Assembly (NCBI RefSeq): GCF_016863275.1
Contig: NZ_BOOO01000050.1
Span: 1 to 64,000, forward strand
Reading direction: 5' to 3'
DNA: 64,000 nt
Source: Planotetraspora mira
GTDB taxonomy: Bacteria; Actinomycetota; Actinomycetes; Streptosporangiales; Streptosporangiaceae
The position numbers were made by a program, and so were the translations under genes. The notes below the pieces were generated by a model. That model did no database searches. It saw nothing but the letters and a program-made list of their open reading frames with translations, and had not been told where the DNA came from. Each line of letters starts with the position of its first letter. Position 1 is the first letter of the stretch. This document shows, one piece after another, positions 42,372 through 64,000 of this stretch.

Positions 42372-44072
42372 TTACGCGAGGCGGTAGGCGACCATGAAGG
42401 TCTCGGTCGGGAACGTCGTCTCCCGCAGGGGGATGATCGTCCGCGGAGCCTCGATGATCGTGATCGTCGAGCCGCTCACCTTCGAGACGATCACCGTGTG
42501 GGAGGGCCTGTTGTGCTCGTCGGGGCGGCTGAGGATCAGGTCGCCCGGCTGCAGGTCGGAGACCCGGTGAATGGTGTAGGCGAAGATGGACGGCCGGTGG
42601 TCGTACATGTTGTAGGTCGTCACGGGACCGATGTCGACGCCGGTCCCCTGGTAGAAGGCCCAGCGCATGAGCCCGGAGCAGTCGAAGCCGATCCGCTTGT
42701 CCGCGGCGCACGCGCCCGTGGCGTCGTAGCCGTTGATGCCGTCGCAGTACCCCCGGGTCGGGCCCGGGTGGGCGCCGTGGCCGCCGCCCCACGCGTACAG
42801 CGGGTGGTTGGTGATCTCGGCGCGGGCGGCCGCGATCGCCGCGTTGACCTTCTCCTGGTGAGTGGAGGACGGCGGAGCCGGTGAGCCGGGGTCCCAGCCG
42901 GACGGGTCGCCGCCGGCGGGCGGAGGCGTGTTGTCGCAACGCGGCAGGCCGGCGACGAAGCCGTCCGTGCCCGTCTTGACGTAGTAGTCGGCGACCCAGA
43001 GCCCGTCGGTGGTCTTGTCCCAGATGGCCGAGCCGCCGTAGGTGAACTCACCGTACGCCTGGCACGTGATCGTCACCGTGCTGCCCGACGGGTACTTGTC
43101 CGGGTAGGCGTGGTTGCTGAGGCTCTTGGCCGTACGGCCGTCGAGGGTGGCCGTCACGACGTACGAGTGACCGCCGGTGGAGCCGCCCCCGGAGGTGCAG
43201 CGGGGCAGGGCGGGGGAGAAGCCGCTGTAGCCGGTCTTGACATAGAAGTCGGGGAGCCACCAGCCGTCGGCGGTGAGGTCCCAGATCGTGCTGCCGTAGG
43301 CGGCGGGGCCGCTGTCCTGGCAGCTGATCTCGACGTACTGGCCCTCGAAGTACCGGTCGACGGAGGCGTGGTTGTTGACGTCCTTGACGCTGCGGCCGTC
43401 GAGCGTTGCCGTCACCGGGAACGAGTGCGGGCCGGTCGCGGGCGGGTCGACCTCGTCGCCGCCGCAACGCGGAAGCTGCGGGGTGGGGCCGCTGTAGCCG
43501 GTCTTGACGTAGAAGTCGGGGACCCACAGGTTGTCGTCGGTGAGGTCCCACAGGTTGCTGCCGTACGCGTCGGGGCCCGTGGTCTGGCAGGTGATCCAGA
43601 CGACGCTGCCGCTCAGGTACTTGTTCACATACGCGTGGTTGTTGACGTCACGCTCGGTGCGCCCGTCGAGGGTGGCCGAGACGGTGTACGGCCGGCCGGT
43701 GCCGCTGCCCGGCGTGTTGCCGTTGACGCAGCGGGGCACCTCGTCGGTGAAGCCCGAGTGCCCGGTCTTCACGTAGAAGTCGGGGACCCAGAGGCTGTCG
43801 GAGGTGCGGTCCCAGACCGTGCTCCCGTAGGCGTCGGGCCCACTGTCCTGGCAGGTGACCGTGATGGTGCTGCCGTTCGCGTACTTGTTGGGGTACGCGT
43901 GGTTGTTCAGGTCCTTGGCCGTGCGCCCGTCCAGGGTCGCGGTGACCGTGTAGGAGTGCGACCCGACGGCGGCCTCGGCCGCGCCGGGCGCCACGAACAG
44001 CGCGACGAACAACGTCGCCGCGCCGACCAGCGGTGCGCATAATTTGCGCAGCCGCGAAGGTCCAGACTTCAA
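42372..44072 (-). CDS. Secreted four-repeat SH3-like NlpC/P60 hydrolase
   Basis: Exported protein of 566 residues. The start is best read as TTG 44072, because AAAGGA lies six bases upstream; a GTG at 44087 is the alternative. A signal peptide covers about 1-35. Four SH3-like repeats of 85-95 residues follow, each with TLDGRT..D.NNHA, a paired ITCQ...YGS..WD, VPDFYVKTG and a closing PRC, so each repeat holds two cysteines. A Pro/Gly linker leads to an NlpC/P60 domain: RIGFDCSGLMRWAFYQGTG (catalytic Cys) and RPSHTVIVSK (catalytic His). It likely cuts peptidoglycan peptides. Codon 11 is TTA. Confidence 0.88.
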   Translation of the reverse strand: MKSGPSRLRKLCAPLVGAATLFVALFVAPGAAEAAVGSHSYTVTATLDGRTAKDLNNHAYPNKYANGSTITVTCQDSGPDAYGSTVWDRTSDSLWVPDFYVKTGHSGFTDEVPRCVNGNTPGSGTGRPYTVSATLDGRTERDVNNHAYVNKYLSGSVVWITCQTTGPDAYGSNLWDLTDDNLWVPDFYVKTGYSGPTPQLPRCGGDEVDPPATGPHSFPVTATLDGRSVKDVNNHASVDRYFEGQYVEISCQDSGPAAYGSTIWDLTADGWWLPDFYVKTGYSGFSPALPRCTSGGGSTGGHSYVVTATLDGRTAKSLSNHAYPDKYPSGSTVTITCQAYGEFTYGGSAIWDKTTDGLWVADYYVKTGTDGFVAGLPRCDNTPPPAGGDPSGWDPGSPAPPSSTHQEKVNAAIAAARAEITNHPLYAWGGGHGAHPGPTRGYCDGINGYDATGACAADKRIGFDCSGLMRWAFYQGTGVDIGPVTTYNMYDHRPSIFAYTIHRVSDLQPGDLILSRPDEHNRPSHTVIVSKVSGSTITIIEAPRTIIPLRETTFPTETFMVAYRLA

Positions 44073-60119: not shown

Positions 60120-60787
60120 ATGAGCTCCAAGGGGGGTGCGGTGACGTAGGGGCGGCCTCAACTTATAGACGGAATTCGCCCCTGAACAAGCATGTTGGGT
60201 TGCTATTTCCGGCATGTGGTCCATCGCCGGATCGGATGTCTTCCGCCGGCGTCCCGGGTGGCGCTTTGTACGCCCCCCGCCGTCGGCCGGAGAGCACACC
60301 CGCCCGGTGTGCAGGACGGTGCCCGATGTCGTCGGGGCAGGCGCTCAGTGAGTCGGGTGATCTGGAGGGGGCGCCTGAGGCCGTTTTCCATTCTCACGGA
60401 ATCGTGAACGGATTCCGTGAGAATCGAAAATCAACATTGTGGGGGCCACCTGCCCGAGCAGGGGTGCGCAGCCCGGCCGACTGCAGGGGGTAACTGAATG
60501 TGACGGCGCGAAGCAGTGAATTGTCCATTAGTGTCAGCAAACTCGCGACATGCGGTGCGTCAAAACGCTATTAATTAATTCGAGGGCAATGTGCTCGTAT
60601 TCCGTGCGTATTCGCGTGCCAATGAGGAAGAGGCTCGTCGGCAGCGCGGAGGCACGTGCGTCGATGGAGTATCCCTCGAAGCGGCATGGGACGCGCCAAC
60701 TCGACTGGACGTGCGCGGACGTACCTGTCAACCATGGATTTCTACCCGTATCGCCGCGCACGAAGGCGATTCGGGGGAGGAGGCGCT
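60120..60787. other. Long spacer, low in GC toward its right end
   Basis: A 668-base stretch between divergent genes. The left part is the thiolase-like promoter. A perfect inverted repeat stands at 60390-60424. The right part (about 60500-60620) is AT-rich, including CTATTAATTAATTC near 60568-60581, and is the likely promoter of the repeat protein gene. An open frame of 56 codons from ATG 60325 to TAA 60491 spans the inverted repeat but has mixed third positions, so I do not call it a gene. Confidence 0.6.
60390..60424. repeat. Isolated perfect 14-base inverted repeat
   Basis: ATTCTCACGGAATC (60390-60403) and its exact complement (60411-60424) surround a seven-base loop, GTGAACG. Within it TCACG-GAAT-CGTGA is a second, smaller palindrome. 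It is not placed directly after any gene, so a simple terminator role is not obvious. Confidence 0.7.
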
Positions 60788-61309
60788 ATGCACGGAAAAC
60801 GCGTCACGGTGCCGCTCGGTACGGCACTGCTCGGGGCGGCCTTACTTTTCGGGTCCGGCCAGGTCTCAAATGCCTCGACCGGCCAGGTCCAGGCGAACGC
60901 GACAATGCTCAGCGCAACAGAGTACGCAATGGCGACGGGCACTCTCCGAAAGGAACCGCCGCCCGGTCCCCGTGAGCGCGAGCGCATGCGCGAGCGCCAC
61001 ATGCGTGAGCACATGCGTGAGCGCCACATGCGCGAGCACATGCGCGACCGTCACGACCGCGAAATGCGTGACCGCATGCGCGACCGCCACATGCGTGAGC
61101 GGTACCACCGCGACATGCGCGACCGCTACGACCGCGACATGCGCGACCGTACGCGCCACGAGCGCATGCGTGACCGCCACATGCGTCACGACATGGGCAT
61201 TCCTCAGCGCCAGAGTCAGGCCCAGGCCCAGAGCCAGTCCCAGAAGGGGGCGGGCGCGGGCCAGAACCAGAGTCAGAGCCAGAGCCAGAGCCAGGGGCAG
61301 GAGGACTAG
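60788..61309 (+). CDS. Exported Met/Arg/His-rich repeat protein
   Basis: Protein of 173 residues starting at ATG behind GGAGGAGG. A signal peptide covers about residues 1-30 (TVPLGTALLGAALLFGSG), and codon 19 inside it is TTA. Residues 62-136 are an extreme repeat block built on RDRHMRE/RDRYDRDM units; by my count its 75 residues are 29 Arg, 20 Asp/Glu, 13 Met, 10 His, two Tyr and one Thr. Residues 141-173 are a Gln/Ser tail (QSQSQSQSQ). There is no Cys. I know of no such family. Regular Met and His spacing hints at copper or silver binding; the alternating charges suggest a single long helix. The hairpin at 61398 closes it. Confidence 0.75.
   Translation: MHGKRVTVPLGTALLGAALLFGSGQVSNASTGQVQANATMLSATEYAMATGTLRKEPPPGPRERERMRERHMREHMRERHMREHMRDRHDREMRDRMRDRHMRERYHRDMRDRYDRDMRDRTRHERMRDRHMRHDMGIPQRQSQAQAQSQSQKGAGAGQNQSQSQSQSQGQED
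60971..61195. repeat. Degenerate tandem repeat around ATGCG units
   Basis: DNA repeat that encodes the Met/Arg/His block. The core GCCACATGCGTGAGC-like unit and the shorter GACATGCGCGACC-like unit alternate with drift. All six frames stay open across it, an effect of the repeat, but only the frame of the exported protein has a signal peptide and ribosome site. Confidence 0.8.
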
Positions 61310-61397
61310 AACCGTCCGATCCAACGGACGGCAGGTCATGTGAACCCTTGTGGGGCCATGGCCGATCCGAGCCGAGCAGGCCCCCAGGGATGCGGTC

Positions 61398-61705: not shown

Positions 61706-63079
61706 TCACGTGTGCATGGGCGCCCGGTCCGCCTCCAGGAGCGGCAGTCGGAGGACGAAGCGGGCGCCTCTCGGCGAGTCCTCGATGCCGAGGGTGCCGT
61801 GGTGGGCGCTGACGATGTCGCGGCAGATGGCCAGGCCGAGGCCGCTGCCTCCCGGGTCGCGCCGGCGGCCGTCGTCCAGGCGGACGAACGGTTCGAAGAC
61901 CCGCTCCCGATCTTTGAGCGCGATGCCCGCCCCGTCGTCGGTCACGTTCACCACGGCGTACCCGCCCGCGCCCACCGCGGTCACCTCCACGCGTGTCTCG
62001 GCGTGCCGGCACGCGTTCACCAGGAGGTTGTTCATCACGCCGATGATCTGGATCCGGTTGCCGAGGACCATCAGGTCACCGGTGGTGTACGTGCGCACCG
62101 GGGGACCGTTCGCCTGGCCGGCGGCCTCCTCGGCCACCAGGGCGCCGAGGTCGATCGGCACGTGCGGAGCCGGGACGACGGTGCGGAGCCGGGCGAGGAC
62201 CAGGATGTCGTTGATGATCGCGTGCATGCGCTTCGTGGTCGACAGGGCCGCCGCGACGGTCTCCCGCAGATCCACCTCGTCGGGGTAGAGCACGGCCTCC
62301 TCGAGCCGTGTATACAGGCCGGAGACCGGGGATCGGAGCTCGTGGGAGACGACGGACGCGAACTGGCGCTGCTGGTTCACCGCCTCCTCCAGCCGGGCGA
62401 GGGTCCGGTTGGTCGTGCGGGCCAACTGGGCGATCTCGTCGCGGCCGGGAGGCTGGGGGAGACGCAGGCTCAGGTCGCCCACCGTGATCTCGGCCGTTCT
62501 GGCACGGATCTCCGCCACGGGGCGCAGCGTGCGGCCGACCACCCACCAGGCCACCCACGCCGCGAAGGCGGACATCAAAGTGATGCCGAGACCGGTGAGC
62601 CACTCCAGGCGGTGTCCCGAGAGGATCGGCGGCTGGACCATCCCCGCGTAGACGAAGTGAGGCTCTCCCGACCAGAGCACGGTCGTCTCCAGAGGCGGGA
62701 CCCGGACGACGGTGAACACGACGCACCGGGCCGGGGTGCACGCGGTTCCGTGCTGGATTCGATCCTCCTCCGGAGGCAGGAGCCTGCTCATCGGCACATG
62801 GCCCGCGGCCTTGCTGGCCGCCAGCACCCGGCTGTGGGAGTCGGTGAACTGGAGGAGGTCGATGCGGGTCGTCGTGACCGGTTGCGGCGCGCTGTAGGGC
62901 TCCCAGTCGATCCAGGTGGTGGCGAGGCGCTGGGAGTCGGCGTAGATGCCGTCCTGGATCCTGGTCCGGACCGCGAAGTCCAGGCCGACGCCGATCGCGG
63001 TGAAGACGATCACGGACAGGATCGCGGTCACCAGCGTGAAGCGCGCCCGAATCGAGTATGGGCGTAACTGCACCGGCAT
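61706..63079 (-). CDS. Membrane sensor histidine kinase (paralogue of the kinase at 1-568)
   Basis: Kinase of 457 residues starting at ATG 63079 behind GGAGGAAGGG. Order: membrane helix 1 (about 14-34, FTLVTAILSVIVFTAIGVG), extracytoplasmic domain with the Cys pair CTPARC followed by VRVPPLETTVLWSGEPHFVYAGM, helix 2 (GLGITLMSAFAAWVAWWVVG), HAMP (GRTLRPVAEIRARTAEI), phosphoacceptor box FASVVSHELRSPVSGL, N box MNNLLVNACRHAE, DDGAGIALKDRERVFEPF and GGSGLGLAICRDI. Codon 5 is TTA. No response regulator is adjacent. Its sensor domain is nearly interchangeable with that of the truncated kinase at the other end of the window. Confidence 0.92.
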   Translation of the reverse strand: MPVQLRPYSIRARFTLVTAILSVIVFTAIGVGLDFAVRTRIQDGIYADSQRLATTWIDWEPYSAPQPVTTTRIDLLQFTDSHSRVLAASKAAGHVPMSRLLPPEEDRIQHGTACTPARCVVFTVVRVPPLETTVLWSGEPHFVYAGMVQPPILSGHRLEWLTGLGITLMSAFAAWVAWWVVGRTLRPVAEIRARTAEITVGDLSLRLPQPPGRDEIAQLARTTNRTLARLEEAVNQQRQFASVVSHELRSPVSGLYTRLEEAVLYPDEVDLRETVAAALSTTKRMHAIINDILVLARLRTVVPAPHVPIDLGALVAEEAAGQANGPPVRTYTTGDLMVLGNRIQIIGVMNNLLVNACRHAETRVEVTAVGAGGYAVVNVTDDGAGIALKDRERVFEPFVRLDDGRRRDPGGSGLGLAICRDIVSAHHGTLGIEDSPRGARFVLRLPLLEADRAPMHT

Positions 63080-63298
63080 CCCTTCCTCCCCGGGCGTCTC
63101 CTCCTTTGAAACTTCATCCATATATGTCCTTTTCAGACCTTACGTTAGATCCATCCGCCGCACCTGACCTGGGACTCCAAATCTTGGAATGGCCGCCCCC
63201 TCGTTACTCCTGATGCCGCCCGGGTACGCACCGCCCGAGAGGCCCGACCGAGAAGCCCGGTCCGCGAGATCGAGGGCCGCCTGCCGGGAGGTCCGTGA

Positions 63299-64000
63299 AT
63301 GGACTGGTTGTGGCACGCGCTGGCGCTCGCCGGAGCCATGGGGTGGGAGATCCTCTGGGCGTTGATCCTCGGGTTCGTCCTGTCGGCGGTCGTCCAGGCC
63401 GTGGTGCGCCGTCAGGCCGTCACGGCCCTGCTGGGTGACGACTCGCCGAGGGCGCTCGCGGCCGCGAGCGGGCTGGGGGTGGCCTCCTCGTCGTGCTCCT
63501 ACGCGGCGGTGGCGCTCGCGCGGTCGCTGTTCCGCAAGGGGGCGAGCTTCACCGCCGCCATGGCCTTCGAGATCGCCTCGACCAACCTCGTTCTCGAACT
63601 GGGCATTCTGCTGGCGTTGCTGCTGGGGTGGCAGTTCACACTGGCGGAGTTCGTCGGCGGCCCGATCATGATCGTGCTCATCGCGGTGCTCTACCGGATC
63701 CTCCTGCGCAGGCGCCTGGTCGCCGACGCGCTCCGGCAGTCGGAAAAGGGACTGGCCGGGTCGATGGAGGGGCACGCCGCGATGGACATGTCGGTGGCGG
63801 GCGGAGGATCGTTCCTGCGGCGGCTCACCTCGGCGAAGGGCCGCACCGCGATCTCGCACATCTTCGTCATGGAATGGGCCGCGATCTGGCGCGACATCGT
63901 CGTCGGACTGCTCATCACCGGTGCCCTCGCGGCGTGGGTTCCCATGGAGTTCTGGAAGAACTTCTTCCTCACCGGAGATCCGCTCCTGGCGGTGCTGTGG
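63299..64000 (+). CDS. Permease (ArsP_1/DUF318-like), cut by window edge
   Basis: The first 234 residues of a polytopic membrane protein, starting at ATG 63299 with GGGAGG seven bases upstream. It shows the family's opening GWEILWALILGFVLSAVVQAVV, the loop GVASSSCSYAAVALARSLFRKGASFTAAMAFEIASTNLVLELGI with a conserved-looking Cys, and GHAAMDM in a cytoplasmic loop. This matches the predicted permease family PF03773 (ArsP_1), whose members include organoarsenical exporters. The substrate here is unknown. The C terminus lies beyond the window. Confidence 0.85.
   Translation, partial: MDWLWHALALAGAMGWEILWALILGFVLSAVVQAVVRRQAVTALLGDDSPRALAAASGLGVASSSCSYAAVALARSLFRKGASFTAAMAFEIASTNLVLELGILLALLLGWQFTLAEFVGGPIMIVLIAVLYRILLRRRLVADALRQSEKGLAGSMEGHAAMDMSVAGGGSFLRRLTSAKGRTAISHIFVMEWAAIWRDIVVGLLITGALAAWVPMEFWKNFFLTGDPLLAVLW

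Follow-up and report, generated by a model that had tools for sequence, protein, structure and literature searches.

A putative promoter-leader-signal cassette with varied low-complexity bodies in Planotetraspora and related Streptosporangiaceae

A Met/Arg/His-rich gene of Planotetraspora mira (60788–61309) appears to be one member of a scattered gene set of one bacterial family of soil actinomycetes, in which a constant delivery cassette is joined to interchangeable low-complexity bodies that may act as coat or matrix polyelectrolytes. This picture as a whole is put forward tentatively. What the sequences themselves show is the cassette, how diverse the bodies are, selection on the gene, members of opposite charge in every Planotetraspora genome, and TTA codons.

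The window gene and its ortholog

The window is a stretch of 64,000 nucleotides at the start of a contig of the 9.03 Mb P. mira genome. The gene at 60788–61309 is confirmed as an ORF of 173 amino acids, a signal-peptide protein without cysteine (Table 1). Residues 62–136 consist of 29 Arg, 20 Asp/Glu, 13 Met, 10 His, 2 Tyr and 1 Thr. The 37 C-terminal residues form a tail rich in Gln and Ser (14 and 7, respectively), ending in GQED, where no sorting signal with a hydrophobic segment is visible by eye. A Gln/Ser-rich tail is also present in L014 of genome G002. Cleavage of signal peptides follows an AxA-type rule; the end of the signal peptide was set by eye. The first-pass annotation, made from the letters alone, had given the ORF, its length, the residue counts, the tail, the lack of Cys and the TTA codon correctly, and the ribosome site it called good is in place. 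Its view of the protein as exported agrees with a crude hydropathy test, which the protein passes. Where it described a terminator hairpin, an inverted repeat lies 3' of the stop, but there is no T-run, and a terminator scan does not report it, giving as the sole site 60827, within the coding region.

Table 1. Features of the window gene and its upstream region.
Feature	Position	Strand	Evidence and remarks
CTGGACG box, putative -35	60705..60711	+	pattern match; T2, G4 and A5 identical in 68 of 68 members compared (the 69th, L151, left out as placed out of register)
ACCATGG box, putative -10	60731..60737	+	19 nt after first box
Possible 5' leader hairpin, CCCG.ATCGCC..GGCGAT.CGGG	60745..60775	+	z=-3.36; directly 5' of ribosome site
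Ribosome-binding site, GGAGGAGG	60776..60783	+	sequence; 4 bases 5' of ATG
Signal peptide, MHGKRVTVPLGTALLGAALLFGSGQVSNA	60788..60874	+	alignment, hydropathy; like paralogues in kind
Ser/Thr/Ala-rich linker, ending in PPPGP	60875..60970	+	alignment; all 13 genus proteins keep P59 and P61
Arg/Asp/Glu/Met/His body, predicted single alpha-helix	60971..61195	+	composition, model, periodicity
Gln/Ser/Gly tail	61196..61306	+	composition
7-bp inverted repeat CCGTCCG/CGGACGG, 3' of stop	61312..61331	+	sequence; no T-run

An ortholog of 181 amino acids occurs in Planotetraspora silvatica NBRC 100141 (locus L005/L016), and published work places the two species close to each other (PMC11431748). Over 169 shared codons the genes differ by 14 synonymous and 10 non-synonymous changes (dS 0.14, dN 0.026, dN/dS 0.18, with 0.18 also for the body alone), and the gaps in the DNA alignment, of 27, 12, 3 and 6 bases, are all multiples of three. 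A purifying dN/dS together with gaps that keep the frame argues against a noise ORF, and at the level of sequence this is a real gene under purifying selection. The comparison of synonymous and non-synonymous change that the first-pass annotation had suggested thus bears out its view that the gene is not noise, and the frame-breaking indels that would have spoken against it are not found in this pair.

The gene itself is present in two of five Planotetraspora genomes, while its gene family is present in all five, so that the absence from sister strains raised earlier as a possible objection applies to the gene in three genomes and not to the family. By protein search, those three (G001, G002 and G004) hold paralogues but no ortholog. 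The thiolase and histidine-kinase genes on either side lie about 0.6 kb apart in G001, with no such gene between them; in G002 the gap is about 2.1 kb and contains other ORFs, none matching it, and in G004 no thiolase was found beside the histidine kinase. Judged from these genomes, the gene arose recently or has been lost often. In the window, the histidine kinase (61706–63121) adjoins an ArsP_1-type permease gene (63299–64000) that runs past the window end, and a 267-bp tandem repeat (1.9 copies, 74% matches) is found at 43106–43596.

In the best of five AlphaFold2 models, built on a shallow alignment of 13, residues 61–135 form one helix, with pLDDT 84–90 in most blocks up to residue 130. 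Outside the helix confidence is low, and mean pLDDT is 64 for this model and 56–57.5 for the others. The body contains 24 opposite-charge pairs at i+4, where 1000 shuffles average 14.8 and reach 24 at most, and fewer than shuffled at i+3 (11 vs 15.2). Single alpha-helix (ER/K) domains are marked by opposite charges at i+4 and a long helix; both are seen in the window body as modelled, in line with the charged single helix that had been proposed. Unlike ER/K domains, it has Met or His every 4–5 residues, Arg in place of Lys, and a predicted secreted location, and most sister bodies (Gly-His, poly-Gly, TRPV) differ from ER/K in composition. A ladder of Met and His metal ligands, also proposed for this helix, did not hold up. 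At 100 degrees per residue the vector strength is R=0.26 for Met (p=0.35) and R=0.10 for His (p=0.90), so that neither lines up on one helix face. Met recurs in the body at 84 degrees (4.3 residues) and not at 100, and so forms no face on the helix. Most paralogues lose Met, which is mostly replaced by Phe, His/Tyr, Gly-His, Lys or Ser/Glu.

As the first-pass annotation had stated, the protein falls into no known family: the best Pfam match is DUF3837 at 13.6 bits (cut-off 25), and there were no matches in NCBIfam at E<=0.1 or in the PDB at E<=0.01. From the other 68 members, nine were scanned in Pfam and eight in NCBIfam (together with L032), all under cut-off, among them L133 against TIGR02271 (18.5 bits, cut-off 49.75). 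One open-access library, with subscription journals mostly outside it, yielded no paper on secreted low-complexity proteins of the Streptosporangi group, or on a conserved signal peptide with a hypervariable body in actinobacteria. On family searches with 10 of 69 members and this thin literature search, the gene set appears to be new.

The cassette and its spread

The DNA upstream of the paralogues has the consensus CTRGACG-N19-ACSATGG, followed by a leader up to the ATG. The second box is looser than the first; both are fully matched in 35 of 69 members, and the spacing is 20 nt in seven. The promoter region claimed earlier for the window gene is based here on these boxes being conserved; a sigma-70 consensus scan at the gene found no promoter. 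The putative leader hairpin rests on fold energies, since no covariation is seen, and the energies are mixed. Among 50 distinct leader cores, after removal of 11 repeats and of 8 leaders in which no second box was recognised, 42 fold better than the shuffle mean and 8 do not, with a mean z of -1.31. Twelve longer folds, of 65–74 nt, are unremarkable (z -1.67 to +1.09). An RNAalifold consensus of 17 leaders has 4 pairs, none with a compensatory change, and Rfam, run on the window at gathering threshold, gave 0 matches. The hairpin sequence may alternatively be a DNA operator.

Protein searches find two further members in the window genome (E 2.8e-10 and 2.5e-8; the match L004, with E 0.2, is not counted) and two or three such genes in each of the five genus genomes, one P. 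silvatica gene accounting for two of the matches. These paralogues agree in the signal peptide and in a junction rich in Pro, beyond which they continue with Phe-Arg repeats, with His-Arg repeats, or with His and a Gln/Ser tail. The exact two-box pattern occurs at 19 sites in the five genus genomes (0 in the reversed control), and a signal-peptide gene lies downstream of every one. New bodies found 3' of box sites (acidic Ser/Glu/Gln, TRPV-type repeats, KKKD/GKW and GHGHGH) follow the same signal peptide, with the pattern MxGKRLs..LGaxLL. Outside the genus there were 40 exact sites vs 24 in the reversed control; these were set aside as mostly chance, readable ones often lying inside ORFs or lacking such a gene.

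A sequence-only model (R1) was built from 30 leaders. At a relaxed threshold, the five genus genomes give 22 matches with E<=5e-7, and the next is at 0.046, a gap that places the set at 4–5 genes per Planotetraspora genome, with no regulator and no enzyme among them. Searches at the level of family, order and class were run in Infernal with stricter filters. Across 341 genomes of the family, 69 match at E<=0.01 (20 of 68 genera). Membership was read for matches at E<=1.8e-4, where 69 of 70 precede a gene read as a member. The members come from seven genera (g1, g4, g27, g33, g34, g59 and g65), and the single miss is L152 of g30. Training leaders make up 30 of these 70 matches; the other 40 comprise 39 members, 32 of them with a signal peptide. 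Start codons were picked by eye, and for L125, L137 and L153 the first ORF was another frame (L125 also has a 70-aa alternative). L029, L030, L032, L033 and L035 were inspected and excluded from the count. In the order sample 36 of 249 match at E<=0.001, none outside the family, and in the class sample 7 of 296 at E<=1e-4, namely six of Streptosporangiaceae and G484, where the site falls within a 496-aa ORF.

A signal-peptide-like start is present in 62 of the 69 members, all of which pass a crude test (a hydrophobic stretch, preceding K/R and a small-x-Ala site), while seven members of g4 fail its hydropathy part. At these loci (L114, L115, L116, L118, L125, L129 and L151) the boxes and leader are kept without a signal peptide, and the products are 35–43 aa long with 14–43% Arg, several being Arg/Tyr. 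By eye, ORF lists around ten loci reveal no neighbour common to different body kinds; the TRPV loci L199 and L202 have similar neighbours to each other. A similar signal peptide precedes a compact body with 2–4 Cys and GYxxG-like motifs in L032, L033 and L035 (g6) and in L081 (g27), the last with a box site 177 nt 5' of the start.

Bodies, TTA codons and charge

By eye, the 69 bodies fall into 14 kinds: RHM (2), RF (5), HR (5), H+Q (1), poly-H (1), RHE (1), GH (4), poly-G (2), acidic (9), Lys (3), Cys-rich (7), Gly-Gln (4), TRPV (18) and Arg-rich without signal peptide (7). Built from leader and signal-peptide DNA, a midpoint-rooted tree of 51 rows (leaving out the seven signal-less and 11 of the 18 TRPV rows) joins unlike bodies. 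One clade holds GH, RHE and Lys bodies (98/98, its inner order weak); the D body groups with the Phe-Arg B bodies (100/98), Gly-Gln with two acidic members (97/91), and Cys-rich with TRPV (92/84, under the starred level). Support at the deepest fork is weak (66/88). As unlike bodies are joined in the cassette tree, the cassette has probably stayed constant while the bodies behind it were replaced or remade; that cassettes converged is less likely. The Cys-rich members are cationic exported mini-proteins under the same leader (L131:540-800 in G003, L140:1158-1418 in G002, L138, L142, L143, L147 and L149), with six or seven Cys, e.g. CTNRCTNHRKFRCCPKCKRVPGKC; L131 and L142 gave no Pfam match. 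The TRPV bodies are modelled poorly (mean pLDDT 44.6). By description they may resemble planctomycete YTV-domain cell-wall proteins, exported and with short Thr/Val-rich repeats, but they have one Cys and are not Cys-rich. YTV genes are reported to be confined to Planctomycetales (PMC8567305).

Net charge of the mature part was taken as K+R minus D+E, with a crude cleavage rule and His not counted. The values are +9, +13, +8 and -17 in G000; +10, +10, -1 and -18 in G001; +12, +11, +10, +8 and -20 in G002; +9, +12, +8, +9 and -13 in G003; and +12, +9, -2 and -14 in G004. Within Planotetraspora, the genus in which this pairing was seen, each of the five genomes thus combines one acidic member (-13 to -20) with basic members numbering two to four (+8 to +13). 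The 18 TRPV members range from -3 to +17 over 206–359 residues.

In Streptomyces, TTA codons make genes dependent on the developmental tRNA bldA. The window gene carries an in-frame TTA near its start (60842–60844, residue 19), conserved at residue 19 in the P. silvatica ortholog. Among the 69 members, 27 have a TTA, exactly one each and always within the signal peptide, between residues 6 and 19. It stands at residue 19 in A (2/2), at 10 in B and D (6/6), at 8 or 9 in TRPV (17/18) and at 6 or 8 in Cys-rich members (2/7). The remaining kinds have none, and TTA is absent from 42 members, among them every acidic, HR, GH, Lys and poly-G body. The background is 5 TTA in 1455 Leu codons, spread over five genes, for 34 window genes picked by GC3. 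Because the members of a subfamily are related, the codons amount to about five placements and not 27 events. A bldA-type dependence may be inferred for the TTA-bearing members, and the earlier suggestion that the window gene is controlled is supported.

Possible roles of the gene set

The best fit, held tentatively, is to coat or matrix proteins, because one cassette carries bodies of either charge and, in several subfamilies, a development-type codon. The cassette genes would come on jointly at some stage of development, translation of the TTA-bearing members being UUA-dependent, and the proteins would be secreted without an anchor. Binding each other and anionic wall polymers as bulk polyelectrolytes, they would give hyphae, sporangia or spores a cohesive coat or matrix, in which the window protein's basic RHM helix would pair with an acidic ES/EQ member expressed from the same kind of promoter. 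A precedent is SspA of the sporangium-forming Actinoplanes missouriensis, a secreted, predicted disordered spore protein reported to be needed for the strength of the sporangium (PMC13293333). Judged by description, the two proteins are alike in being small, exported by Sec and predicted to be disordered in the mature part, and in coming from actinomycetes that form sporangia; a sortase sorting signal is present in SspA, whereas the window protein ends in its Gln/Ser tail. Several features count against a coat. The Cys-rich members look like folded mini-proteins and, like the Gly-Gln ones, are not obvious matrix proteins; the seven signal-less g4 members mean that export is not universal; and the TRPV net charge is low for the length, too weak for a simple polyelectrolyte role. 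TTA is lacking in most members, acidic pairs have dN/dS near 1, and the window gene is absent from three of five species.

Other readings explain parts of the set. One unlikely reading, though several bodies favour it, is that secreted His/Met-rich proteins bind metals (copper, silver, zinc or nickel) on the cell surface: HR, GH and poly-H members are 20–35% His, Met and His number 13 and 10 in the window body and 15 and 11 in that of the ortholog, and REHM/RERHM motifs occur in HR paralogues from two genomes without the window gene, G001 and G002. Met and His nevertheless lie off any one helix face, and Phe-Arg, Lys-rich and acidic members under the same cassette hold just 1–5 His each. A constant leader with a variable body also recalls prochlorosin precursors, conotoxins and frog skin peptides, in which the leader is constant and the cargo changes, and the Arg-rich bodies and the cationic minis with 6–7 Cys would suit antimicrobial or interference peptides evolving in an arms race. 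Here the cargo is mostly long and of low complexity, the signal is of Sec type and the upstream DNA is conserved; the cassette also precedes acidic bodies, near-neutral Gly-His bodies and poly-Gly bodies, and the window pair is under purifying selection, which makes this reading rather improbable. The signal-less, Arg-rich g4 products would fit binding to nucleic acids or polyphosphate, intracellular for members that lack a signal peptide, but with a signal-peptide-like start in 62 of 69 members, and acidic members unable to act on phosphate polymers, we give Arg-rich phosphate-polymer binders a slim chance as a general account. Equally slim is the chance that the bodies are function-poor tracts expanding behind an active secretion cassette. 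They change fast between genera, and dN/dS is 1.05 and 1.01 for the acidic pairs and 0.50 and 0.53 for a B pair and a C pair; against this stand the low dN/dS and frame-keeping gaps of the window pair and the values of 0.22 and 0.28 for B and C pairs from the same two genomes.

The coat or matrix reading can be narrowed to a more specific and more doubtful form, in which a promoter-leader-signal cassette, copied across the genome, would have been fitted one after another with unrelated polymers of opposite charge, whose joint developmental release would form an extracellular matrix by complex coacervation. Histidine-rich squid beak proteins are reported to serve as phase-separation models (PMC6884462). 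With its constant control and export cassette and freely exchanged bodies, the set offers a testable case for the birth and replacement of secreted low-complexity proteins in bacteria, and the list of 4–5 genes per Planotetraspora genome allows one to ask whether co-secreted proteins of opposite charge form an extracellular condensate.
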